IMG/VR virus record: IMGVR_UViG_3300020445_000084
Coordinates: 1 to 22,837 of that record
Source of the DNA: a virus
Reading direction: 5' to 3' (one strand)
DNA: 22,837 nucleotides
The notes beneath the pieces were generated by a model. That model saw nothing but the letters and a program-made list of their open reading frames with translations. It was not told the DNA's origin and searched no databases. How positions within the stretch are numbered: the first letter of the stretch is position 1; every line of letters begins with the position of its first letter. This document shows, one piece after another, positions 9,332 to 22,837 of this stretch. The position numbers and the translations under genes are program-made.

Positions 9332-9339
9332 TATAAATA
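9332..9339 (+). promoter_or_regulatory. T4-type late promoter box TATAAATA (hsp20)
   Basis: An exact late-promoter octamer in the gap between two genes, 67 bases before the hsp20 ATG. With T4 spacing the transcript would begin near 9345, giving a leader of about 60 bases. Late expression of Hsp20 would fit a role in virion assembly or in protecting proteins late in infection. Confidence 0.75.
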
Positions 9340-9904: not shown

Positions 9905-10912
9905 ATGGGTATTAAAATATTAGATGGTGATGTAGATTTAGGAGCTGGTGGAGTTTCTAGATTTAATAGTGAAACTGGTAAAGAAGAAATAATCAGACAA
10001 CCAGATAATCCCGACCAACCGTTTACAATAGAAGATTATAATAAAGCTCTTGAAGGAGCTGCCGAAAAACCAAGTGAGAAAAAGATTATGAGTGATGATG
10101 TAAAACAAGTGAAGCGTACAGATATGGTAAACGCACAGAATGAAGCTTCTGAAAATCAACAAGTAGATACAGGTGAACCTGTACCAAAGAATCCTGGCGG
10201 TATTCAAATCGCCTTTAGACCAAAGACAGCAGTAAACATTATGAGGTGTCAATTCCCTAATGAAGTCACAACAGAAATAAATCAACATATTGAAGATGTA
10301 ATTATTCCAAAAAGTACAGACCATTCAGATGGCCTTGTAGGTCAGATTAATCAACATGAAAGGTCAGCACAATTAACTTTCCCACATGAAGATGATGAAG
10401 TTGGTGAAATGTTTGGTGGAGTATTACAAAGACTTGCAAAAGAATATGTTAATAGGTCAATCGGAATAGAATGTGAAACCTCTATTGAATCAATGTGGAC
10501 AGTACATAGTTATAGTGGTGATTACAATCCAATACATGACCATGGTACAAGAACACCAATGGGTGTATCATGTATTATGTATTTACAAGTTCCTAGATGT
10601 ATTGAAAAATTAGGAAATCCGTCAGAAGAATTTGGTGGATTAAATAATTCATCAGGTAATGTTAATGGATTTACATATTTAACATGGGGTCAAAATGGAA
10701 TGCGTGATATTAATATGATGCGACCTATTACAGAAGAATATATTAAACCAGAAGTTGGTACATTAATAATGTTCCCTAGTTGGTTAAGACATGGTGTTAT
10801 GCCTTTCTTTAGTGAAGTACCAAATGATGAGAGAAGAACATTCTCTGCAAATATTAATATTACTTTAAAAGAAAGATTAACTGGTGACCATTATAGGAAA
10901 GATAGGACATGA
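9905..10912 (+). CDS. 2OG-Fe(II) oxygenase family protein, paralogue 1
   Basis: A 335-residue protein whose C-terminal ~240 residues match the phage-type 2-oxoglutarate/Fe(II) dioxygenase family (TIGR02466-like). It has SMWTVHSYSGDYNPIHDHG with His211, Asp212 and His213, then the strand/loop LIMFPSWLRHGVMPF with His296, and ERRTFSANI with the arginine expected to hold 2-oxoglutarate. The N-terminal ~95 residues are polar, Gln/Asn/Glu-rich and probably disordered, and are absent from the two paralogues in this window. Substrate is unknown. The stop overlaps the ATG of paralogue 2 (ATGA). It begins a few bases after a consensus promoter and lacks a Shine-Dalgarno, so leaderless translation is likely. 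Confidence 0.88.
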   Translation: MGIKILDGDVDLGAGGVSRFNSETGKEEIIRQPDNPDQPFTIEDYNKALEGAAEKPSEKKIMSDDVKQVKRTDMVNAQNEASENQQVDTGEPVPKNPGGIQIAFRPKTAVNIMRCQFPNEVTTEINQHIEDVIIPKSTDHSDGLVGQINQHERSAQLTFPHEDDEVGEMFGGVLQRLAKEYVNRSIGIECETSIESMWTVHSYSGDYNPIHDHGTRTPMGVSCIMYLQVPRCIEKLGNPSEEFGGLNNSSGNVNGFTYLTWGQNGMRDINMMRPITEEYIKPEVGTLIMFPSWLRHGVMPFFSEVPNDERRTFSANINITLKERLTGDHYRKDRT

Positions 10913-11694
10913 GTTTAAAAGACCTTTCTGATTCAATGAGTTTACCAAAAAACAAACCAGAAGAAGGTAAACAAAAACAATTTGATACACACGCACAGAT
11001 AAAAACTATTCCGTCATATAAATTAATGGCAATACAAATGCCTGATGCATTTACTGATGATATCAATAAACATATTGATGAAGTTATCATACCAAGTAAA
11101 GTATCTCATGGAAGTCAATTAGTAGGTCAGATTAACAGAAACGAAAAATCTGAACAATATACATTCCCTTTAGATGGTGAAACAGGTAAAGATTTTAAAA
11201 CTGTTATAGATAGATGTGCAACTAGTTTACTTCGCGATAAAACAGGTTATAGTCGTGATAGTATTGCAGATTCTTTTGAAGCGTGGACTGTACATAGTTA
11301 TGAAGGTGATTACAATCCATTACATGCACATGGTTGCCAAACACCAGCTGGACTATCAATGATATTTTATTTGAAAGTACCAAAGTGTATTCAAGATAAA
11401 CCATCATTCCCTACATTACAAAATGCGTCTGGTGATATTGATGGTCATACAGGTTTAATAACATCTACAAATACAATTCAAGATGTTTATAGATTAAAGT
11501 TAGATGCACAAGAATATATAAAACCTAAAAAAGGATTTATGATAATATTTCCTAATTGGTTGCAACATTGTGTTATGCCGTTTTTCGGTGAAGGTGAACG
11601 AAGAACAATGTCTGCTAACTTTAATATTAAAGACAGTAAAGAAACTGTCGCTCAATTTAAATCACCTACATTAAATAAAGAAATTAAATCGTAA
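10909..11694 (+). CDS. 2OG-Fe(II) oxygenase family protein, paralogue 2
   Basis: A 261-residue paralogue of the preceding gene. Shared blocks include an IDEVIIPSKVSHGSQLVGQIN-type segment and AWTVHSYEGDYNPLHAHG with an HxH pair (His139, His141). They also include MIIFPNWLQHCVMPFF carrying the distal histidine, and GERRTMSANF with the 2OG-binding arginine. The iron-proximal motif is HAH here against HDH in paralogue 1; the family usually shows HxH at this place. It lacks the disordered N-terminal extension. Substrate unknown. It ends 11 bases before the sliding clamp gene, and its final codons run into the AAGGAG ribosome-binding site of that gene. Confidence 0.87.
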   Translation: MSLKDLSDSMSLPKNKPEEGKQKQFDTHAQIKTIPSYKLMAIQMPDAFTDDINKHIDEVIIPSKVSHGSQLVGQINRNEKSEQYTFPLDGETGKDFKTVIDRCATSLLRDKTGYSRDSIADSFEAWTVHSYEGDYNPLHAHGCQTPAGLSMIFYLKVPKCIQDKPSFPTLQNASGDIDGHTGLITSTNTIQDVYRLKLDAQEYIKPKKGFMIIFPNWLQHCVMPFFGEGERRTMSANFNIKDSKETVAQFKSPTLNKEIKS

Positions 11695-12398: not shown

Positions 12399-13334
12399 AT
12401 GGAAACTTTTTTATGGGTGGAGAAACATCGCCCAAGCACAATCAATGAATGTGTCTTATCAGAACATCTAAAAACTACTTTTATAGAATTTGTAAAAGAT
12501 AAACATATTCCAAATTTAATATTATCGGGTGGGCCAGGTATTGGTAAAACAACAGTTGCCAAGGCAATGCTTGATGAAATTGGAGCAACATCATTAGTCA
12601 TAAATGGTTCAGAAGAATCAGGTATTGATGTGCTCAGAAATAAAATCAAAAACTTTGCTTCTACTGTATCACTAGAAGGTGGTCGTAAGTATGTTATACT
12701 TGATGAGGCAGATTATCTAAATCCTCAATCTACTCAACCTGCACTTCGTGGGTTCATGGAAGAATTTCACAAAAACTGTGGATTCATTCTTACTTGTAAT
12801 TATAAAAATAGATTAATAGAACCATTACATTCAAGATGTAGTGTTATAGATTTTATAATTCCTAAAGAAGATAAACCAAGACTTGCAAAAGATTTTTTTA
12901 GTAGAGTTAAAAATATTTTAGAAAATGAAAATATAAAATATGAACCTAGAGTTGTAATGGAAGTATTGACTAAATATTTCCCAGATTGGCGAAGAACTTT
13001 AAATGAATTACAAAGATATTCTACATCAGGCCAAATAGATGCTGGAATATTAGTTAATATATCGGAAGTAAATATAAATGAACTTGTTGCCGCACTCAAA
13101 GCTCAGGAATTCACTAGTGTACGAAAGTGGATTGTACATAATCTTGACAATGACCCTGTGCGTATTTATCGTAGGATTTATGACAGTCTTTATGAGTATG
13201 CTGATAGTAGTACAATACCTCATGCAGTTCTTATCTTATCTAAGTACCAGTATCAGTCAGCTTTTGTGGCCGACCAAGAAATAAACTTGTTGGCTTGTCT
13301 AACAGAAATTATGGTGGATGTGAAATGGAAATAG
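12399..13334 (+). CDS. 44: clamp loader ATPase subunit gp44
   Basis: Large subunit of the clamp loader, an AAA+ ATPase (RFC/DnaX type) that opens gp45 and places it on primed DNA together with gp62. 311 residues against about 319 in T4. The N-terminal LWVEKHRPSTINECVL is the usual RFC box. Walker A is GGPGIGKT (44-51), Walker B LDEAD (101-105), and the trans-acting arginine motif SRC is at 145-147. The C-terminal collar helices are present. The start context is TTATATATTATGG with no strong Shine-Dalgarno. The last 10 bases overlap the third oxygenase if that gene starts at 13325. Confidence 0.96.
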   Translation: METFLWVEKHRPSTINECVLSEHLKTTFIEFVKDKHIPNLILSGGPGIGKTTVAKAMLDEIGATSLVINGSEESGIDVLRNKIKNFASTVSLEGGRKYVILDEADYLNPQSTQPALRGFMEEFHKNCGFILTCNYKNRLIEPLHSRCSVIDFIIPKEDKPRLAKDFFSRVKNILENENIKYEPRVVMEVLTKYFPDWRRTLNELQRYSTSGQIDAGILVNISEVNINELVAALKAQEFTSVRKWIVHNLDNDPVRIYRRIYDSLYEYADSSTIPHAVLILSKYQYQSAFVADQEINLLACLTEIMVDVKWK

Positions 13335-14056
13335 AAAATGTACAAGTGATAAAACCATTTGGGCCTTTAGTTATGGTGGCACAATTACCAGAAGGTATAA
13401 TTAAAAAACTTAATGGAATTGCTGAAGTGGTTAAAGAAAAAGGTGACATGGGCCCAAGACTTGCTGGTATTATAAAAAAAGAAAGTGAAATACCACATTC
13501 CATGTTAGAAGAAAAAAAATGTATGAATATTTTTCATGCATTATCTAGAAGTTATATAGAACAAGCTTATTTAAATTCTGGTCAAAAAAATATATGGGAT
13601 GCAATGGATGTTAAAACTCAAATGCAATCTATTTGGACTGTACATCAATATGAAAATGAATATAATCCACAACACACTCATTCACATTGTCAGATAAGTT
13701 CTGTATTGTATTTAAAAGTTCCTGCTATGAAACCTAGAAACATAACTGGTAAAAGAGATAAGGATGGTGAAATAGAATTTACATTTTGTACAAATGATAA
13801 TATTTTTACAACAGGTTCTTTTGTAATAAAACCAAAACCTGGCATGTGTATATTATTTCCTAATAGTTTGTATCATCAAGTATACCCATTTCAAGGTTCT
13901 GGTGAAAGAAGAAGTATTGCATTTAATATGGCATACAAAGGATTTAAAAAAGATAGTGGAATACAAATTGCTGGAGATAGTGTAAATTTATATAATGAAA
14001 CTAATCATGCAGACACTATACCATGGCGAGTAATGGAACAAGGATATCACAAATGA
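13325..14056 (+). CDS. 2OG-Fe(II) oxygenase family protein, paralogue 3
   Basis: A 243-residue protein of the same family as the genes at 9905 and 10909, lying between the two clamp-loader subunit genes. Key blocks are SIWTVHQYENEYNPQHTHSH (His117 and His119 counted from this start), a CILFPNSLYHQVYPF segment with the distal histidine, and GERRSIAFN with the arginine. The frame is open from an earlier ATG at 13295, but that would overlap gp44 by 40 bases. ATG 13325, ten codons later, gives a short overlap and begins directly with the conserved region, so I prefer it. The spacing of paralogue-specific loops differs from the other two, suggesting an older divergence. Substrate unknown. Confidence 0.85.
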   Translation: MEIENVQVIKPFGPLVMVAQLPEGIIKKLNGIAEVVKEKGDMGPRLAGIIKKESEIPHSMLEEKKCMNIFHALSRSYIEQAYLNSGQKNIWDAMDVKTQMQSIWTVHQYENEYNPQHTHSHCQISSVLYLKVPAMKPRNITGKRDKDGEIEFTFCTNDNIFTTGSFVIKPKPGMCILFPNSLYHQVYPFQGSGERRSIAFNMAYKGFKKDSGIQIAGDSVNLYNETNHADTIPWRVMEQGYHK

Positions 14057-14244: not shown

Positions 14245-14629
14245 ATTGAAAGAATATTTAAATGCAGTAAACTATTCAAAAGAAAAACTTATGGATGGTG
14301 AAGATGAAATGTGGGAAAAGAAATATCCTGCGTATATTATAAATAAATGTGTGGCTCCTTTTCAAGATACTATATTTTTAGTAAATGAAATGAATAGGAA
14401 TCATCACATAGATAAGAAACTACAATTTGATTTTTTAATAAATAGTTTAAGAAAAAGGAAAAGATACACACCTTGGTTAAAAGCGAAAAAGGTGAAAAAT
14501 CTAGAGTATGTAAAAGAGTATTATGGATATAGTAATGAAAAAGCAAAGTCGGCTCTTAATATACTAAATGATGAACAAATGAAAACTATAATAGATAGTT
14601 TAAATAAAGGCGGTAAACATGGAAAATAA
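14237..14629 (+). CDS. 62: clamp loader small subunit gp62
   Basis: Non-ATPase partner of gp44 in the clamp loader. The 130-residue length is shorter than T4 gp62 (187) but similar to the compact form in marine T4-like phages. Recognisable features are VNYSKEKLM near the start, NEMNRNHHIDKKLQFDFLINSLRKRKRYTPWLKAK in the middle, and YYGYSNEKAKSALNIL near the end, which agree with my recollection of marine-phage gp62. The position between gp44 and regA is the T4 order. It overlaps the upstream small ORF by 8 bases and regA by 11 bases. A TATAAATA octamer occurs inside it at 14338-14345. Confidence 0.85.
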   Translation: MYELKEYLNAVNYSKEKLMDGEDEMWEKKYPAYIINKCVAPFQDTIFLVNEMNRNHHIDKKLQFDFLINSLRKRKRYTPWLKAKKVKNLEYVKEYYGYSNEKAKSALNILNDEQMKTIIDSLNKGGKHGK

Positions 14630-15029
14630 TATAACTTGGTCACAAGAGCAGATGTTTGAGGTTCTGTTAAAAGAACCAGATGACTTCCTAAAGATAAGAG
14701 AAACTTTATCTCGTATAGGAGTTGCTTCTAGAAAAGAAAGAAAATTATATCAGTCATGCCATATACTTCATAAACAAGGAAAGTATTATATTGTTCACTT
14801 CAAAGAATTATTTGCATTAGATGGTAAGAATACTAATCTATCAGAAAATGATATTGCAAGAAGAAATACAATAGTTAAACTTTTAAGTGATTGGGGATTG
14901 GTGACAATGAAAGGAACACCAGAACCTATAGCACCATTAAGTCAAATTAAAATTATTTCTTTTAAAGAAAAAGATGAATGGACTTTAGAAACAAAATATA
15001 ACATAGGTAAAAAGAAAGAGGTAGAGTAG
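14619..15029 (+). CDS. regA: translational repressor RegA
   Basis: Phage RNA-binding protein that represses translation of many early mRNAs, including in T4 those for gp44 and gp45, by binding near their start codons. The 136 residues include a ~10-residue N-terminal extension relative to T4 RegA (122). The match to recalled T4 RegA is strong in PDDFLKIRETLSRIGVA, LYQSCHILHKQGKYYIVHFKELF, DWGLV and ISFKEKDEWTL. It is translated from an ATG overlapping gp62, with AAAGG upstream. The AT-rich TATATTATG start regions of gp45, gp44 and gp43 are plausible targets (inference). Its stop shares a base with the GTG start of the IscU gene. Confidence 0.96.
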   Translation: MENNITWSQEQMFEVLLKEPDDFLKIRETLSRIGVASRKERKLYQSCHILHKQGKYYIVHFKELFALDGKNTNLSENDIARRNTIVKLLSDWGLVTMKGTPEPIAPLSQIKIISFKEKDEWTLETKYNIGKKKEVE

Positions 15030-15436
15030 TGGCATATTCAGATAAAGTTTTAGACCATTATGAGAATCCACGAAATGTAGGTTCACTTGATAAAGATGAC
15101 CCAACAGTAGGTACAGGGATGGTTGGAGCACCTGCATGTGGCGATGTTATGAAACTTCAAATTAAAGTAGATGAAAATGATATCATAACAGATGCTAAAT
15201 TTAAAACCTATGGATGTGGTTCAGCAATTGCCTCATCTAGTTTATTAACAGAATGGGTAAGAGGTAAAACTTTAAATGAAGCAGAACAAATTAAAAATAC
15301 AGAAATAGTAGAAGAACTTGCACTACCACCTGTAAAAATTCATTGCTCAGTCTTGGCAGAAGATGCGATTAAAACTGCGATTGCAGATTTAAAAGGTAAA
15401 CAAGAATCAATGGGTAAATGGCAACCAAACGAGTAA
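15029..15436 (+). CDS. iscU: IscU-type iron-sulfur cluster scaffold protein
   Basis: A 135-residue IscU scaffold on which [2Fe-2S] clusters are assembled and handed on. It starts with GTG overlapping the regA stop by one base. YSDKVLDHYENPRNVG is the usual IscU start. All cluster-related residues are present at the same numbers as in E. coli IscU: Cys37, Asp39, Cys63, His105 and Cys106. The chaperone-recognition motif LPPVK occupies 99-103, the element bound by HscA in bacteria. Everything needed for a functional scaffold therefore seems retained. No cysteine desulfurase or chaperone gene is visible nearby, so the protein would have to work with host IscS and HscA/HscB. Phage iscU genes are reported among marine viral auxiliary genes. 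Confidence 0.95.
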   Translation: MAYSDKVLDHYENPRNVGSLDKDDPTVGTGMVGAPACGDVMKLQIKVDENDIITDAKFKTYGCGSAIASSSLLTEWVRGKTLNEAEQIKNTEIVEELALPPVKIHCSVLAEDAIKTAIADLKGKQESMGKWQPNE

Positions 15437-15443
15437 ATATATA

Positions 15444-16859
15444 ATGAAAAATTTTCAATCTTTTATCACAGAAGAAAATGTGAATGATGGTGATATACAA
15501 ATCGCTATCTTAACTAAAGTATCATCTAAAGAAAAAGAAGTTGTTTCTAATCAAATTAAAGAATACGCAGACAAAAATAATATTCCTTGTCACATAATTA
15601 ATACAAGAAAAGCATGGGTATCTACAAATGATGTAGATAAAGGTGTTATTACTATTACAGATAAAGAAGGTAATAAAGTAGATTATCAAGTAAATAAAAC
15701 TGTGGTATTTGTTCGTGCTGGGGTATTAGATGATGAAGTCGGACTTGCATTACTTTCTACTTTTGAAAAGGCAGGTGCATTTATGATTAACAATCGTGAC
15801 GGAATGTTAACCTGTGATAATAAAATGTCTACCTATATTACATTTAATCAAAATGGAATACAGACACCTAGAACATCAATTATTAATAATGAAGAATCTG
15901 TAAAAGATGCACATGAAAGAATCGGTGGTCAATTTCCCGTAATTATAAAAACAATTACAGGTACACAAGGTATTGGTGTATCAATCGTAAATGATTATAA
16001 GAGTATGATATCTGTTATACAATCTTTATGGAAATTTAATGCAGACTTATTAGTACAAGAATTTTTAGAAATGGATTTTGATATTAGGACTATCGTTGTT
16101 GATGGTGTAATTATAGCATCCACTAAGAGAATAAAACCAAAAGAAGATTTTCGTTCTAATATTCATAGAGGTGCTGATTCAGAACCTTATGTATTATCAA
16201 AAGAAGAAAAAAAATTAATATTAGATGCGTATAGAACAACAGGTGCATACATGGTTGGTGTAGACCATACAATCGTAAAAGGAAAAGCATATATTCTAGA
16301 ATGTAATGGGTCACCTGGTATTGGGTCTAACTTTGGAAATGGTGATGGTAAGAAAACTACAAATGAAAGATTAATTGAGAAGGTATTAGAACATGTTGGA
16401 AAAGTAAGAAGTAGATTTGTAGGTTCAACACAAGTTGCTGGATATGTAGAAAGATTAGAAATTGTAGGACTTGGGCCATATCGTGCTAAACTTGATACAG
16501 GTAATGGAACTAAAGCGTCCATGTTTGTAGTAGACAAATTAGAAATAAAAGGCAAGATAGTTAAATGGGAAAGAGATGGTATAAAACAAACTCATAGAAT
16601 AGTTGGTGTATCTCATCCACACCATGTAGGTAAGATAGATAAAAGACCTATAATATTAGTAGACTTAAAATTTAATAACAAATTATATAAAGATGTACCA
16701 ATAGGACTAACAACAAAAGATTCTAGAAGTACATTTTTAATTAATAGAGAACTTTTAACTAGATTAAAAGTAGCAGTAAACCCAGACAGAAAATTCGTTC
16801 TTTCTAGTTATATAAAAAGAGGCGATGACAATGATGAAGATTATAGGAATCCAAGATGA
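15444..16859 (+). CDS. rimK: RimK-like ATP-grasp ligase fused to a retropepsin-like protease, with capsid-targeting-like N-terminus
   Basis: A 471-residue two-domain protein. Residues ~17-310 are an ATP-grasp ligase of the RimK family, which in bacteria adds glutamates to ribosomal protein S6. It has IIKTITGTQGIG (167-178, with ATP-binding Lys169) and the metal-binding ILECNGSPG (Glu286, Asn288). Residues ~325-460 are a DUF/PF05618-type domain, like RimB, with a retropepsin signature KLDTGNGTKAS (Asp351) and PIGLTTKDSRSTFLINRELL. The first ten residues, MKNFQSFITE, resemble the T4 internal-protein capsid-targeting peptide MKTYQEFIAE, including a gp21-type cleavage site (I-x-E). This suggests packaging in the head, which is an inference. 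The gene follows iscU by 7 bases and its stop overlaps the next ATG. Confidence 0.92.
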   Translation: MKNFQSFITEENVNDGDIQIAILTKVSSKEKEVVSNQIKEYADKNNIPCHIINTRKAWVSTNDVDKGVITITDKEGNKVDYQVNKTVVFVRAGVLDDEVGLALLSTFEKAGAFMINNRDGMLTCDNKMSTYITFNQNGIQTPRTSIINNEESVKDAHERIGGQFPVIIKTITGTQGIGVSIVNDYKSMISVIQSLWKFNADLLVQEFLEMDFDIRTIVVDGVIIASTKRIKPKEDFRSNIHRGADSEPYVLSKEEKKLILDAYRTTGAYMVGVDHTIVKGKAYILECNGSPGIGSNFGNGDGKKTTNERLIEKVLEHVGKVRSRFVGSTQVAGYVERLEIVGLGPYRAKLDTGNGTKASMFVVDKLEIKGKIVKWERDGIKQTHRIVGVSHPHHVGKIDKRPIILVDLKFNNKLYKDVPIGLTTKDSRSTFLINRELLTRLKVAVNPDRKFVLSSYIKRGDDNDEDYRNPR

Positions 16860-17103: not shown

Positions 17104-19596
17104 ATGCAATTTTATACTAATGTGACCCCTTGGGGCAATACTCTACTTGTTAGAGAATATGTGAATGGTGAAAGAGTTAATCGTAAGGTTAAGTATTCCC
17201 CTACTTTATTTTGTAAAGTAATTAAAGATACTAATTATAAAACTCTTGATGGTCAAAATGTCACACCAATAAAACATCAAACAATTAAAGATGCTAAAGA
17301 ATGGTTGAAGTCTTATGAAGACCAACCACATTTAATCTTTGGAAATACTTTATTTCAATATAATTATATTGCAGATGAATATCCTAATTATGTTAAATGG
17401 GATATTGATAAAATTCTTGTAGTCACTATTGATATAGAAGTCGCTTGTGAGAATGGATTCCCACAAGTTGAGGATGCAATAGAACCTCTACTATCAATTA
17501 CAATTAAGAATCATCAAAATAAACAGATACTCGTTTGGGGTATAGGTGAATATAAAAATACAAGAGAAGATGTGACTTATGTAAAATGTAAAGATGAGAA
17601 AATGTTAATACAAGAGTTTTTATCTTTCTGGCAAAAGAATCAACCAGATGTTATCACAGGTTGGAATACAGAATTTTTTGATATACCATATCTATGTAAT
17701 CGTATTAAAAATTTATATGATGAATATGAGATAAACAAATTATCACCATGGGGTAATGTGTCAAGTAAAGAAGTTTATCAAATGGGTAGAAAACATCAAG
17801 TCTATAATATTCAAGGAGTATCACATTTGGATTTTTATGATTTGTATAGGAAGTTTACATATGTCACGCGTGAGAGCTACAGATTAGACCATATAGCCCA
17901 TATTGAACTCGGTGAGAGTAAAGATGACAATCCATACGAAACATTTAGAGAATGGTACTTAAAGGACTTTCAATCTTTCATTGACTATAATATACAAGAT
18001 GTTGAGATAGTAGATAGATTAGAAGATAAAATGAAACTGATTGAGTTATGTTTAACTATGGCATATGATGCTAAAGTTAATTATATGGATGTACTTGGCT
18101 CAGTAAAATATTGGGATATATTGATTTATAATGAATTGAGAAAAAAGAATATTGTTATACCACAAAAAATAGATAGGAAAAAAACAGAACAGTTTGCAGG
18201 TGCTTATGTAAAAGAACCTCAAGTTGGTTTACACAAATGGGTTATGTCTTTTGATTTAAATTCTCTATATCCACATTTAATCATGCAGTATAACATTTCA
18301 CCAGAGACCTTGGTCGCTGATAAAAAAGTAAAAGACATATCCGTAGAAAGAATGCTAAATAAAGAAGTAGATACATCAGTATTAAAAGATGCGACATTAA
18401 CACCAAATGGTGCATTGTTTAAAACTACAAAAAAAGGATTTTTACCTGAACTCATGCAAAGGATTTATGATGAAAGGGTAAAGTTTAAACAGCTTCTGTT
18501 GGAGGCAAAGAAAGATTATGAAAGAACGAAAGACCCAAAACTTAAAAAGACAATCTCGAAATTTAATAATATCCAAATGGCTAAGAAGATTTCTCTTAAT
18601 AGTGCGTATGGTGCTATTGGTAATAACTGGTTTAGGTATTATAATCTTCTGGTCGCTGAAGCAATTACTACCAGCGGTCAATTTGCTATTAGGTATATTG
18701 AACATTCTCTTAATGGGTATCTTAATAAAATACTTGAAACCAATGGAGAAGATTACATTATTGCGTCAGATACGGATTCGGTGTACATATGTTTTGACAA
18801 ACTTGTTAGCAAAGTATTCAAAGGAGAAGACAAAGATAAAATCGTGGACTTCTTGGACAAGGTGGCTACAGATAAAATTGAACCTTTTATTGATAAGGCT
18901 TATACGGAACTCGCTGAATATGTAAATGCGTATGAACAAAAAATGGTTATGAAAAGAGAAGTAATTGCAGACAAAGGAATTTGGGTTGCAAAGAAAAGAT
19001 ATATCTTAAATTCACATGATATTGAAGGTGTTCGTTTTAAAGAACCTAAACTAAAAATTATGGGAGTTGAAGCTGTGAAGTCATCAACCCCTGCAGCTTG
19101 TAGAGAAAAGATTAAAGAAGCATTAAAAATTATAATGAATGAAGATTCAAAAGTGCTAAATACTTTTATACAAGATTTTAGAAAAGAATTTATGAATCTA
19201 AAACCAGAAATGGTTGCGTACCCACGCTCTGTAAATGGATTAAACAAGTGGACTGAATCACATAATCTATTTAAGAAAGGAGCACCGATACATTGTAAAG
19301 GTGCAATATTATATAATTATCTTATTAAAGATAAAAAATTATTAGGAAAATATCCTTACATACAAGAAGGTGATAAGATTAAATTTTTACATATGAAAAT
19401 ACCTAATACATATCAATCAACCTCTATATCATTTATGACTAAATTACCAAAAGAATTAAACTTACATGGTATTATAGATTATGATATGCAATTTGAAAAA
19501 TCATTTATAGAACCTTTAAAGTTTATTACTGATATTATTCAATGGCAAATAGATGGTAGTTATGGTACACAAGCATCTTTAGAGGATTTTTTTTAA
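17104..19596 (+). CDS. 43: family B DNA polymerase gp43
   Basis: Replicative DNA polymerase with 3-prime to 5-prime proofreading, 830 residues (T4 is 898). Exonuclease motifs are Exo I DIE (Asp110, Glu112), Exo II GWNTEFFDIPYL, and Exo III YNIQDVEIVDRL. Polymerase motifs are A FDLNSLYPHL (Asp384), B KKISLNSAYGAIGN, and C SDTDSVY (Asp556, Asp558). The protein ends QASLEDFF (823-830), matching the clamp-binding peptide found at the C-terminus of T4-type polymerases. No disruption or intein is seen. The start lies in ACTATATTATGC without a Shine-Dalgarno and may be controlled by RegA (inference). The stop TAA overlaps the next ATG by one base. Confidence 0.97.
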   Translation: MQFYTNVTPWGNTLLVREYVNGERVNRKVKYSPTLFCKVIKDTNYKTLDGQNVTPIKHQTIKDAKEWLKSYEDQPHLIFGNTLFQYNYIADEYPNYVKWDIDKILVVTIDIEVACENGFPQVEDAIEPLLSITIKNHQNKQILVWGIGEYKNTREDVTYVKCKDEKMLIQEFLSFWQKNQPDVITGWNTEFFDIPYLCNRIKNLYDEYEINKLSPWGNVSSKEVYQMGRKHQVYNIQGVSHLDFYDLYRKFTYVTRESYRLDHIAHIELGESKDDNPYETFREWYLKDFQSFIDYNIQDVEIVDRLEDKMKLIELCLTMAYDAKVNYMDVLGSVKYWDILIYNELRKKNIVIPQKIDRKKTEQFAGAYVKEPQVGLHKWVMSFDLNSLYPHLIMQYNISPETLVADKKVKDISVERMLNKEVDTSVLKDATLTPNGALFKTTKKGFLPELMQRIYDERVKFKQLLLEAKKDYERTKDPKLKKTISKFNNIQMAKKISLNSAYGAIGNNWFRYYNLLVAEAITTSGQFAIRYIEHSLNGYLNKILETNGEDYIIASDTDSVYICFDKLVSKVFKGEDKDKIVDFLDKVATDKIEPFIDKAYTELAEYVNAYEQKMVMKREVIADKGIWVAKKRYILNSHDIEGVRFKEPKLKIMGVEAVKSSTPAACREKIKEALKIIMNEDSKVLNTFIQDFRKEFMNLKPEMVAYPRSVNGLNKWTESHNLFKKGAPIHCKGAILYNYLIKDKKLLGKYPYIQEGDKIKFLHMKIPNTYQSTSISFMTKLPKELNLHGIIDYDMQFEKSFIEPLKFITDIIQWQIDGSYGTQASLEDFF

Positions 19597-20501
19597 TGAG
19601 TGGTAAAGGAGATAAAAGAAGACCTATGCAAATAGAAAGACAACAATTTGATAATAATTGGGATATTATATTTCAAAAAAATATGATAGATAAAATTTTA
19701 ATTAATGAAGTAGATAAAACTGTACCAGATAAAGAAGTAGCATTATTATTATCTGGTGGTGTTGATTCTATATCTGTTGGATTTGCGGCAGAAAGACTTG
19801 GTAAAAAAATACATGCATATAGTTTTAGATTGGATAGTGAACCATCTTATGATTATAGTAAGGCAAAAGATATTGCTCAAATGAGAGATTGGAAATTTAC
19901 AGGTATAATAATTGATACTAGTAAATTAATAAATGACTTTCATGCATTAGTAGATTTAGGATGTAAAAAGAAAACACAATTTGAATGTACATATCCATTT
20001 TTACATATCTACCCAGAAATAGAAGAAGAATTTGTTTTATCTGGTTGGGCTGCTGATGGTTATTATGGATTGAGTAAAAAAGCCATGATACATTATAAAG
20101 GTGATAACTTTAATGAATTTAGAGATGATTATTTTAAGGAAGAAAATAGAGCTGGTTATATATGGCATAATAAAGTTGCAAAATTATTTTATAAAAAACT
20201 TATTACCCCATACTTATCTGAATCAGTTAAAGAATTCTTTTATAAACATAATCATAAACAATTAAATAGACCATTTCAAAAACATCATGTAAGAAATGGA
20301 TTTTATGAATTTAATGAAATAGGTAAAGTAGAAAATCATTTAAACTTACAAATAGGAAGTGGTGTAAATAAACTATTTGAAACTTTGCTAAATAATAAAG
20401 AAATAAACTTTAAAAATAGAACAAGAATGTTAGATGTATATAGAGATAACCATGTTAGGTATCAAAATAATGAATCTACATTGGATGAATTTTTATTATG
20501 A
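19596..20501 (+). CDS. PP-loop ATP pyrophosphatase, asparagine-synthase-like, with phage KGDKRRP N-terminal motif
   Basis: A 301-residue protein with the PP-loop SGGVDS (53-58), followed by AERLGKKIHAYSFRLD, the pattern of the ATP-pyrophosphatase domain of asparagine synthase. The glutaminase domain of true asparagine synthetase B is absent. The first ~27 residues, MSGKGDKRRP followed by QQFDNNWDIIF, match a short motif I recall from stand-alone small phage proteins, so this looks like a fusion. The C-terminus NESTLDEFLL resembles sliding-clamp-binding peptides such as the gp43 tail next door. Enzymes of this type adenylate a substrate before amidation or thiolation. Its position between gp43 and three DNA methyltransferases suggests a role in DNA modification, but that is a guess. 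Start and stop overlap both neighbours. Confidence 0.82.
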   Translation: MSGKGDKRRPMQIERQQFDNNWDIIFQKNMIDKILINEVDKTVPDKEVALLLSGGVDSISVGFAAERLGKKIHAYSFRLDSEPSYDYSKAKDIAQMRDWKFTGIIIDTSKLINDFHALVDLGCKKKTQFECTYPFLHIYPEIEEEFVLSGWAADGYYGLSKKAMIHYKGDNFNEFRDDYFKEENRAGYIWHNKVAKLFYKKLITPYLSESVKEFFYKHNHKQLNRPFQKHHVRNGFYEFNEIGKVENHLNLQIGSGVNKLFETLLNNKEINFKNRTRMLDVYRDNHVRYQNNESTLDEFLL

Positions 20502-21592
20502 AATACAAACCATATAATTTAAAAGATGTTGTTAAGGCTTCAGAACAAGAGAAGTTTACAGTAGTATCTACATTTGCTGGTGGTGGTGGAAGTTCCACAG
20601 GTTATCGTTTAGCTGGTGGTAAGATATTATGTGTAAATGAATTTGTTGAACAAGCAATAAATACATATAAAGAAAACTACCCAGACACACCTGTACTACC
20701 AGATGATATTAAAAAACTTACAGCAGAAAACTTTAACAAGTATGGTGAGATAGATATTTTTGATGGTTCCCCACCATGTTCTGCTTTTTCTGTATCGGGT
20801 GCAATGGTACAAGGAAAACATTCTAAAGGTTGGGGTCAAACTAAAAGTTATTCTGATGGTAAGAAGATTGAGAATATAGAAGATTTATTTTTTGAGTTTT
20901 TAAGAATTGCAAAAGATTTAAGACCTAAAGTTATTGTTGCTGAAAATGTAAAAGGACTAACTGTGGGTGAAGCAAAACAATACTATTATAAAATTACAAA
21001 TACATTTGAAGAAATAGGATATGATGTATCATCTAAAGTTTTAAATTCTGTACACTATGGAGTACCACAAACTAGACAAAGAACTATTTTTATTGCTGTT
21101 CGTGAAGACATAACTCAAAAGGCAGGATTAACATTTATGAATATTAATAGTTTATTCCCAGAAGAAAGTAATCAAGTAGTCACATTAGAAGATTGTTTAA
21201 GTGATATTGAAGTAGATAGAAAAGAAGCAGACAGACTAATAGAAAAATTTAAGAAAACATCACATTATGAAACTTGGTTGAAAATGCCAGATGACCCAGA
21301 CAAGGTTGAAACTGGTGCTGATTATCATCCTAAAGGTCATCACTTTAATATGAAAAAAACATCTAGACATAAACCTGCTCCAACAATTACAGCAACAGGT
21401 GGAGCAATACATTGGCATGAACCTAGACACTTTACAATTAAAGAAACAAAAAGAATGATGTCATTACCTGATGACTTTAAATTAACAGGTAGTTTTAATC
21501 AACAGTCAGAAAGATGTGGTAGAATGGTACCACCATTAATGATGAAAGCAATTGCAGAATCAATTTACGAAAAGGTGTTAAAAAAATTATGA
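20498..21592 (+). CDS. DNA C5-cytosine methyltransferase, copy 1
   Basis: A 364-residue Dcm-type enzyme that transfers a methyl group from SAM to C5 of cytosine. Motif I is FAGGGGSSTG, motif IV GSPPCSAFS with nucleophile Cys94, motif VI AENVKG, motif VIII QTRQRTIF. A variable region holds the target-recognition segment before TITATGG (motif IX). Motif X reads GRMVPPLMMKAIAESI, where GNAVPP is more usual. All catalytic elements are present. No restriction endonuclease is adjacent, so it is probably a stand-alone methylase protecting phage DNA. A diverged second copy starts at 22092. The ATG overlaps the stop of the PP-loop gene. Confidence 0.94.
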   Translation: MKYKPYNLKDVVKASEQEKFTVVSTFAGGGGSSTGYRLAGGKILCVNEFVEQAINTYKENYPDTPVLPDDIKKLTAENFNKYGEIDIFDGSPPCSAFSVSGAMVQGKHSKGWGQTKSYSDGKKIENIEDLFFEFLRIAKDLRPKVIVAENVKGLTVGEAKQYYYKITNTFEEIGYDVSSKVLNSVHYGVPQTRQRTIFIAVREDITQKAGLTFMNINSLFPEESNQVVTLEDCLSDIEVDRKEADRLIEKFKKTSHYETWLKMPDDPDKVETGADYHPKGHHFNMKKTSRHKPAPTITATGGAIHWHEPRHFTIKETKRMMSLPDDFKLTGSFNQQSERCGRMVPPLMMKAIAESIYEKVLKKL

Positions 21593-22095
21593 ATTATGTA
21601 GGTAGGGTAAGTACACCAAAAAGTAGAAAAGTCACACCCAATGATTTAATAATGACAAACTCATCTACTGCTAAATTTATAATAGATTACTTTAAACCTA
21701 CAGGTAAGATACTAGAACCTTGTAGAGGTACAGGTTCTTTCTATAACCAATTTGAAGGTGATAAAGATTGGTGCGAAATAACAGAAGGTAAAGATTTTCT
21801 TGATTATGATAAAAAAGTTAATTGGATAATAACTAATCCGCCATTTAGTATTTTTGATAAATTTTTATTAAAGGCATTTGAAGTTGCAGATAATATAGTT
21901 TTCTTTTGTCCTTTAATTAAAACATTTAAAGGTAAAAAACTTGACATGAAGATTAGAGAATATGGTGACATAAAAGAAATAGTACACATGGGTGGTGGTA
22001 ATAATCATGGATTCCCATTTGGATTTTCTACGGGCTGTATATATTATAAAAAAAATTATACAGGTGATATAAAATATACAAGAGTTTACGAATGA
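21589..22095 (+). CDS. SAM-dependent DNA methyltransferase, NPPF type
   Basis: A compact 168-residue methyltransferase. The SAM-binding motif is LEPCRGTGSFYNQF (motif I) and the catalytic motif TNPPFS (Asn83-Pro-Pro-Phe86) is that of amino methyltransferases acting on adenine N6 or cytosine N4. FCPLIKTFKGK and a short C-terminal strand region with HGFPFGFSTGCIYYKK follow. It is small for this class and contains no evident target-recognition domain, so target choice must rest on short loops. It is nested between the two paralogous C5 methyltransferases, with ATGA overlaps on both sides, so the three are co-translated. Adenine as substrate is the usual guess for NPPF but is not proven. Confidence 0.85.
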   Translation: MNYVGRVSTPKSRKVTPNDLIMTNSSTAKFIIDYFKPTGKILEPCRGTGSFYNQFEGDKDWCEITEGKDFLDYDKKVNWIITNPPFSIFDKFLLKAFEVADNIVFFCPLIKTFKGKKLDMKIREYGDIKEIVHMGGGNNHGFPFGFSTGCIYYKKNYTGDIKYTRVYE

Positions 22096-22837
22096 AATAT
22101 AAACCATACAATTTAAAAGATGTAAAAGAAGCATCGGCACAAAAAAAGTTTAATGTAATCTCTACATTCGCAGGTGGGGGTGGTTCATCTACTGGTTATA
22201 GATTAGCAGGTGGAGATATACTTTGTATAAATGAATTTGTAGAAGAAGCTAGAAAAACATATAAAGAAAATTACCCCGATACACCAATCATACCTGGTGA
22301 TATAAAAGAACTTACAGGGAAAGACTTTTTAGAAGTTGCAAATATTAAAGAAGGTGAATTAGATATACTAGATGGTTCACCACCATGTTCAGCATTTTCA
22401 ATGTGTGGTACATTAGGAAAGTCTGGTTCAAAACATTCTGATGGTTGGGGTAAAACTAAAAAGTATTCAGATGGTAAAATAGTAGAAAATATTGAAGATT
22501 TATTTTTTGAATATTTAAGAGTTGCAAAAGATATAAAACCTAAAGTAATTATAGGAGAGAATGTTGCAGGCCTATTGGCAGGAGAAGCTAAATTTAAATT
22601 AAATGAAATTGTAAACACATTTGAAAAAATAGGATATGATGTATCATATAAAGTTTTAGACGCATCATACTTCGGTGTACCACAAAGAAGAAATAGAGTA
22701 TTCTTTATTGGTGTTCGTGAAGATGTGACAGAAGCAATAGGATTATCATTTATGAATATTTCTGGTATCTTCCCACAAGAAAATAAAGAAGTAGTCACAA
22801 TAGGAGAGGCATTTGACGGATTAGAGTTAGATTCAGA
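22092..22837 (+). CDS. DNA C5-cytosine methyltransferase, copy 2 (partial, runs off the right edge)
   Basis: An open frame of about 248 codons without a stop before the window ends. The ATG overlaps the upstream stop (ATGA). The protein begins MKYKPYNLKDV, the same as copy 1, and shares motif I FAGGGGSSTG, motif IV GSPPCSAFS (Cys99), an ENV motif VI, and the FGVPQRRNRVFFIG motif VIII block. It differs by insertions after motif IV (GTLGKSGSKHSDG) and in the segment before it. The two genes look like a tandem duplication that has diverged. The target-recognition region and motifs IX-X lie outside the window. Confidence 0.93.
   Translation, partial: MKYKPYNLKDVKEASAQKKFNVISTFAGGGGSSTGYRLAGGDILCINEFVEEARKTYKENYPDTPIIPGDIKELTGKDFLEVANIKEGELDILDGSPPCSAFSMCGTLGKSGSKHSDGWGKTKKYSDGKIVENIEDLFFEYLRVAKDIKPKVIIGENVAGLLAGEAKFKLNEIVNTFEKIGYDVSYKVLDASYFGVPQRRNRVFFIGVREDVTEAIGLSFMNISGIFPQENKEVVTIGEAFDGLELDS

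Follow-up and report, generated by a model that had tools for sequence, protein, structure and literature searches.

The RimK-like gene and its setting

The window analysed here is a 22.8-kb fragment (22,837 nt) of a marine T4-like virus, record IMGVR_UViG_3300020445_000084. Homologues of the 46/47 recombination nuclease, peptide deformylase, hsp20, gp45, gp44, gp62, regA and gp43 are part of its gene order, some of them named from sequence alone, and the head genes lie beyond the reach of the window. A gene for a RimK-like ATP-grasp ligase with a RimB-like (retropepsin) domain is flanked by a NifU-like gene and gp43 (Table 1). The same slot is occupied by RimK in Pelagibacter phage Mosig EXVC030M, and in Methylophilales phage Melnitz-3 RimK adjoins gp43. 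HTVC008M has no RimK gene, indicating that RimK is not essential to this phage group.

Table 1. Coordinates of the RimK-like gene, its parts and its neighbours in the window
Feature	Position	Strand	Evidence
regA homologue (translation repressor), conserved T4-like setting	14619..15029	+	phrog_242, 2e-61
NifU-like Fe-S scaffold gene, immediately upstream of RimK	15029..15436	+	phrog_8429, 2.6e-41
RimK-like ATP-grasp ligase with RimB-like (retropepsin) domain, 471 aa, stop codon included	15444..16859	+	PF08443 RimK, 8e-36; PDB RimK matches by sequence and fold; PF05618 in 14/46 homologues
Leader MKNFQSFITE, proposed capsid-targeting propeptide; key residues F4, F7, I8, E10	15444..15473	+	222/224 intact phage homologues vs 0/23 cellular RimK; IPIII determinants 4, 7, 8, 10 (PMC9026906)
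Predicted prohead-protease cut E10/E11 (ITE/E)	15471..15476	+	gp21 L/I-x-E rule; gp23 of relatives
Variable linker, residues 11–18, from leader to first strand of fold	15474..15497	+	mean column entropy 2.18 vs 1.32 in catalytic domain; model strand 1 at residue 19
RimK ATP-grasp catalytic domain, residues 125–293; D274, E286, N288 and RSN 237–239 invariant	15816..16322	+	profile, PDB alignment, homologue alignment
RimB-like retropepsin domain, about residues 333–445; DTG at 16494–16502 (D351–G353)	16440..16778	+	PF05618 over cut-off in Mosig orthologue; PF05618 hit in 14/46 homologues
Family-B DNA polymerase (gp43), 830-aa ORF, downstream anchor of replication cluster	17104..19596	+	order kept in Mosig, L171 and L172

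Two other groups of genes were observed in the window. Tandem paralogous C5-type DNA methyltransferase genes, each starting MKYKPYNLKDV, lie at 20498–21592 and 22092–22837 with a methyltransferase-like ORF (21589–22095) between them, all named from sequence alone. A set of three 2OG-Fe(II) oxygenase-like genes, including a pair of neighbouring paralogues, lies at 9905–11694 and 13295–14056; the gene at 13295–14056, the only one of the three tested by profile, matched phrog_81.

The late promoter TATAAATA was absent from the 200 bases upstream of RimK in all 123 distinct homologues, i.e., no dedicated late promoter for this gene was found, whereas it is present at gp22 and some gp23 genes. RimK may be read from the replication operon, and read-through or a stable early protein could possibly supply the enzyme at prohead assembly. 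Elsewhere in the window, TATAAATA occurs as a T4 late-promoter-like motif at 9332–9339, 68 bases ahead of hsp20 (9407). Over the window as a whole, sites of this kind show no enrichment.

The RimK profile PF08443 matched residues 125–293 with 123.8 bits against a cut-off of 21, and the best PDB matches by sequence and fold were RimK, including the RimK-RpsF complex. Residues K127, K169, D274, E286 and N288 were invariant over 46 homologues. The D, E and N aligned with those of RimK 5zct and are presumably metal ligands, in keeping with the roles of metal- and ATP-site residues in RimK. From these alignments, the catalytic domain is apparently intact. The window protein alone scored below the PF05618 cut-off for the RimB-like domain; the Mosig orthologue scored above it, and the DTG was kept in every two-domain member of alignment A1. 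The Melnitz clade has no RimB-like domain and retains the N-terminal leader described below, indicating that the leader travels with RimK.

Bacterial RimK relatives add glutamates to a ribosomal protein. The phage protein has the ATP-grasp fold and family motifs in common with bacterial RimK/RimABK, to which it is about 26% identical, and differs from them in its leader and its fused C-terminal protease domain. Bacterial RimB takes glutamates off polyglutamated RpsF and stimulates RimK, and the substrates of both are Glu-rich tails (PMC11957791). The RimBK hybrid of Desulfotalea psychrophila has both domain types in one chain, as in the phage, but in the reverse order, with RimB first in the hybrid and last in the phage, and no leader is reported in it; this hybrid cut polyglutamate and did not glutamylate the RpsF tested (PMC11957791). 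Because the one bacterial RimB-RimK hybrid so tested did not glutamylate S6, ribosomal protein S6 as the target, which the first-pass annotation drew from the family name, is a guess, plausible but less likely than not.

The N-terminal leader and its match to T4

The ORF opens at ATG 15444, reading MKNFQSFITEENVNDGDIQIAILTK, and this start codon is fixed by upstream stops in several relatives. The first-pass annotation had proposed a T4-type capsid-targeting peptide at 15444–15476; this span holds 11 codons, so its end is set back to 15473 for a leader of ten residues, and the leader itself was confirmed. MKNFQSFITE is, as had been stated, identical to MKTYQEFIAE at six of ten positions (M1, K2, Q5, F7, I8 and E10), and the latter proved to be the exact start of T4 IPII and IPIII. 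T4 IPI is a variant in which the targeting half is alike (MKTFKEF) and ITE lies at residues 17–19. A fold beginning after the leader was also borne out by a match of Rimk_N from residue 19, which is weak and below the Pfam cut-off. In the AlphaFold2 model, the first strand spans residues 19–24 and residues 2–12 have pLDDT <50; as modelled, the leader is disordered and outside the RimK fold.

In IPIII, the first 10 residues suffice for incorporation, residues 4 and 7 are the main determinants of targeting and residues 8 and 10 those of processing, and an Asp at position 10 blocks processing and not targeting, the gp21 cleavage site being after L/I-x-E (PMC9026906, a review of the work of L. Black). 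These four functional positions are the ones conserved in the phage RimK leader. Among 123 distinct leader-bearing homologues, position 4 was F in 119 and L in 4, position 7 was F or Y in all, position 8 was I or L (F in 2), and position 10 was E in all and never D. In alignment A2, which was built from leader-bearing sequences, column conservation at positions 4, 7, 8 and 10 is partly by construction. Positions 5, 6, 9 and 11 varied freely between the fixed residues. The F, I and E codons at the fixed positions varied synonymously, indicating selection on the peptide.

The RimK proteins of the window, Mosig and Melnitz were each used to search viral contigs, which gave a set of 228 homologues in all. 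The motif [FYL]xx[FYL][ILVMF]xE was found close to the start in 222 of the 225 with readable N-termini; the three exceptions were one truncated protein (L244), one with a single change (L342, FSQFSTE) and one without the motif (L318). In this comparison of N-termini, a check proposed earlier, 222 of the 224 phage proteins whose start is intact thus bear the leader, and this count is the unbiased figure for its conservation. The leader-bearing homologues span three clades that are only about 30% identical. Many start with GTG or TTG, and the distance from start codon to motif depends on the clade. By column entropy, the linker following the leader is among the least conserved parts of the protein.

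Genes for the gp21 prohead protease and the gp22 core protein are present in Mosig and in the relatives G001, whose RimK is 82% identical to that of the window, and G002. Their gp23 proteins carry F-[LM]-x-E at the T4 gp23 cut position, RSFLKE/AAPTN in G001, KAFMTE/AAPTN in G002 and QAFLSE/AAPTN in Mosig, the cuts being placed by the L/I-x-E rule and by analogy with T4. The residue following the predicted cut is E, Q, K or A in RimK and always A in gp23. Taken together, the conservation of the leader, its specificity (see below), the positions known from mutagenesis and the group's own gp23 site strongly support the reading of the leader as a capsid-targeting peptide of T4 type with a cleavage site of gp21 type.

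Distribution of the leader and links to virions

A scan of a genome collection yielded 25 loci, comprising 23 cellular RimK-like proteins and two 'archaeal' loci that turned out to be phage contigs. The leader was expected to be absent from bacteria and, as anticipated, none of the 23 cellular proteins has it; most cellular RimK begin directly at the first strand of the fold. The other two loci, L171 and L172, filed as Woesearchaeota and Thaumarchaeota MAGs, were rejected as cellular carriers of the leader; both have it, and both are T4-like phage fragments with the order gp62-regA-RimK-gp43. The cyanophages S-RIM12 and S-CAM8 resemble the virus of the window in being T4-like marine phages with a RimK domain. 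However, theirs is another RimK, beside psbA/psbD and purine genes, 24–26% identical, without a protease domain and with the leaderless start MKLWMLGNRL. Since cellular and these cyanophage RimK have no leader, the leader follows one phage lineage of RimK and neither the fold nor every T4-like phage RimK; for the same reason, the possibility that it is an inherited part of the RimK fold was rejected.

Chance was assessed by shuffling the N-termini of 2,061 ORFs called from nine phage genomes. In this sample, 0.15 proteins with at least 6 identities to MKTYQEFIAE were expected after shuffling. For the pattern M-x2-[FY]-x2-[FY]-[ILVFM]-x-E, 0.26 were expected and 7 observed, namely T4 IPII, IPIII and gp61.1, the RimK of G002, the Syn9 cytidyltransferase and one protein each in G001 and Melnitz-3. 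A chance match was rejected on the basis of the shuffles and the conservation. The motif is short and the phage homologues are all of common ancestry, which would favour a fortuitous resemblance or common descent of an N-terminal part of the RimK fold; nevertheless, with a shuffle expectation of about 1e-4 per protein and a leader that is conserved where its flanks are not, absent from cellular RimK and disordered in the model, this explanation is extremely improbable. The first-pass annotation had also suggested looking for further such starts, and no second gene start in the window has the pattern.

Leader-like starts were also observed in other proteins. T4 gp61.1 (L117:18966–19130, AF158101, minus strand; 54 aa, 'hypothetical') starts MKTFKEFIKE, identical to the IPIII tag at 7 of 10 positions, and by its sequence looks like an overlooked internal head protein. 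It adjoins the primase gene and 61.2 (adfA, anti-DarT, PMC9391042), so that this leader bearer, as phage RimK, lies beside a replication gene. DUF6267 proteins of marine T4-like phages start MKTFNQLLTE or ...FSKYITE, a 361-aa Melnitz protein starts MQGFKTFLSE, and proteins of 151 and 131 aa start MKTFKKYIKE and MKNFKNHIAE (loci L101:2574–3821, L144:12203–14528, L094:3336–3791 and L145:2306–2701).

Further support for capsid targeting came from virions in which a protein of a different family bears such a leader. A putative citidylyltransferase, T4-GC190, was detected in purified virions of cyanophage S-SM1 (Sullivan et al. 2010, PMC3037559). The S-SM1 protein SSM1_190 ('T4-LIKE GC: 190') starts MKKFSAFLNEAE (MKKFSAFLNEAERS, S-SM1 record) and gp184 of cyanophage Syn9 starts MKKFSAFLSEAERS. 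Thus the same kind of leader, MKKFSAFL[SN]EAE, is carried by an enzyme whose fold and cargo are unrelated to RimK, and in this virus family a leader-bearing protein is particle-associated. The T4-GC190 genes lie at L347:28257–29420 (S-SM1) and L141:16735–17883 (Syn9), and a related 806-aa protein of G002 (L101:157–2577) starts MKKFKQILNEAK.

The distant phage YerA41 has a RimK homologue, 29% identical, annotated as a 'structural protein'. The particle proteome of this phage lists 63 proteins, including polymerases and helicases (PMC7354516), and may include contaminants. Because the homologue is leaderless and the particle list holds many replication proteins, YerA41 was not accepted as direct proof of packaging, and its listing offers weak support. 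In the literature, we found no virion proteome of the leader-bearing RimK phage group and, among open-licence papers, no earlier report of a leader on RimK.

Placed in the replication cluster, with regA on one side and the polymerase on the other, the gene has no late promoter of its own, a setting that would suit an N-terminal motif for interaction with a phage replication or translation protein, its resemblance to the T4 tag being convergent. This reading is very unlikely, since the leader matches the mapped targeting and processing residues, including the invariant E10, as well as the gp23 cut sites, and since leaders of this type are also carried by unrelated proteins, of which one was detected in virions.

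Proposed route into the next host

The leader is very probably a genuine and conserved propeptide for capsid targeting of the T4 type, carried by a RimK ligase with a RimB-like retropepsin domain, as judged from the comparisons above, and packaging of the enzyme into the head appears likely. The best explanation of the whole, to which we assign a probability of roughly 0.78, is packaging guided by the propeptide, cleavage by gp21, delivery into the next cell and early modification of a host protein. We infer targeting, cleavage and injection as follows. The enzyme would be made during infection, and F4 and F7 of its leader would bring it into the prohead core; the phage gp21 would cut after I/L-x-E, freeing the enzyme from the leader; the enzyme would be enclosed with the DNA as the head fills, reach the next cell along with it, and there modify a host protein ahead of the translation of phage genes. 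Because the key positions of the leader match the T4 head-loading tag, it is probable that the enzyme accompanies the viral DNA into the new host, and delivery with early action is favoured on balance; which substrate it would meet there, S6 or another, is speculative. Several observations speak against this route, namely the lack of a late promoter near RimK, its location in the replication cluster, the residue after the predicted cut, which unlike that of gp23 varies, and the missing RimK gene of HTVC008M.

T4 offers the closest parallel. IPI, IPII and IPIII have leader length, spacing and all four functional positions in common with phage RimK, and in both cases an I/L-x-E cut site occurs in a T4-like phage with gp21 and gp22. 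However, the T4 internal proteins are small (precursors of 95–193 aa; IPI inhibits a restriction enzyme), whereas the RimK cargo is a 471-aa two-domain enzyme, and IPII and IPIII adjoin the lysozyme gene e, whereas phage RimK lies in the replication cluster. The T4 ADP-ribosyltransferase Alt is packaged in the head, is cut by gp21 and, on entry, modifies the machinery of the host. Under the proposed model, phage RimK would work in a manner like Alt, although the enzyme is unrelated and the leader and proposed target differ. Fusion to IPIII or its tag has allowed foreign proteins up to the size of beta-galactosidase to be packaged and delivered in T4 (PMC9026906), indicating that the size of the cargo is no obstacle.

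Alternatively, the leader would recruit the enzyme to the prohead and be cut by gp21, and the enzyme would then act in head assembly of the producing cell, or ride along, with no role in the next one. The leader itself accounts for packaging only, injection and early action being inferred, and RimK and RimB act on Glu-rich tails, while the core protein gp22 is itself very rich in Glu in these phages. On the other hand, the T4 internal proteins take the same route and act in the next host (PMC9391042, PMC3012670), and the T4 leader is removed at prohead maturation, before DNA fills the head (PMC9026906). A role confined to the producing cell is thus improbable, and delivery into the next host is preferred.

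The phages with a leader-bearing RimK are some of the ocean's common phages, and their relatives infect Pelagibacter and Methylophilales. It is conceivable, at slightly less than even odds, that abundant marine T4-like phages pre-load a polyglutamate ligase-protease, inject it and alter the host ribosome or another Glu-tailed protein before expression of their own genes, and that the tag serves for general delivery of diverse enzymes in Kyanoviridae and Straboviridae. If so, use of the T4 head-loading tag would reach beyond the small anti-restriction proteins of enteric phages and include a two-domain enzyme, these phages would have a route by which host translation could be reset just as the DNA enters, and injected proteins could be predicted from genome sequence alone by a sequence rule.
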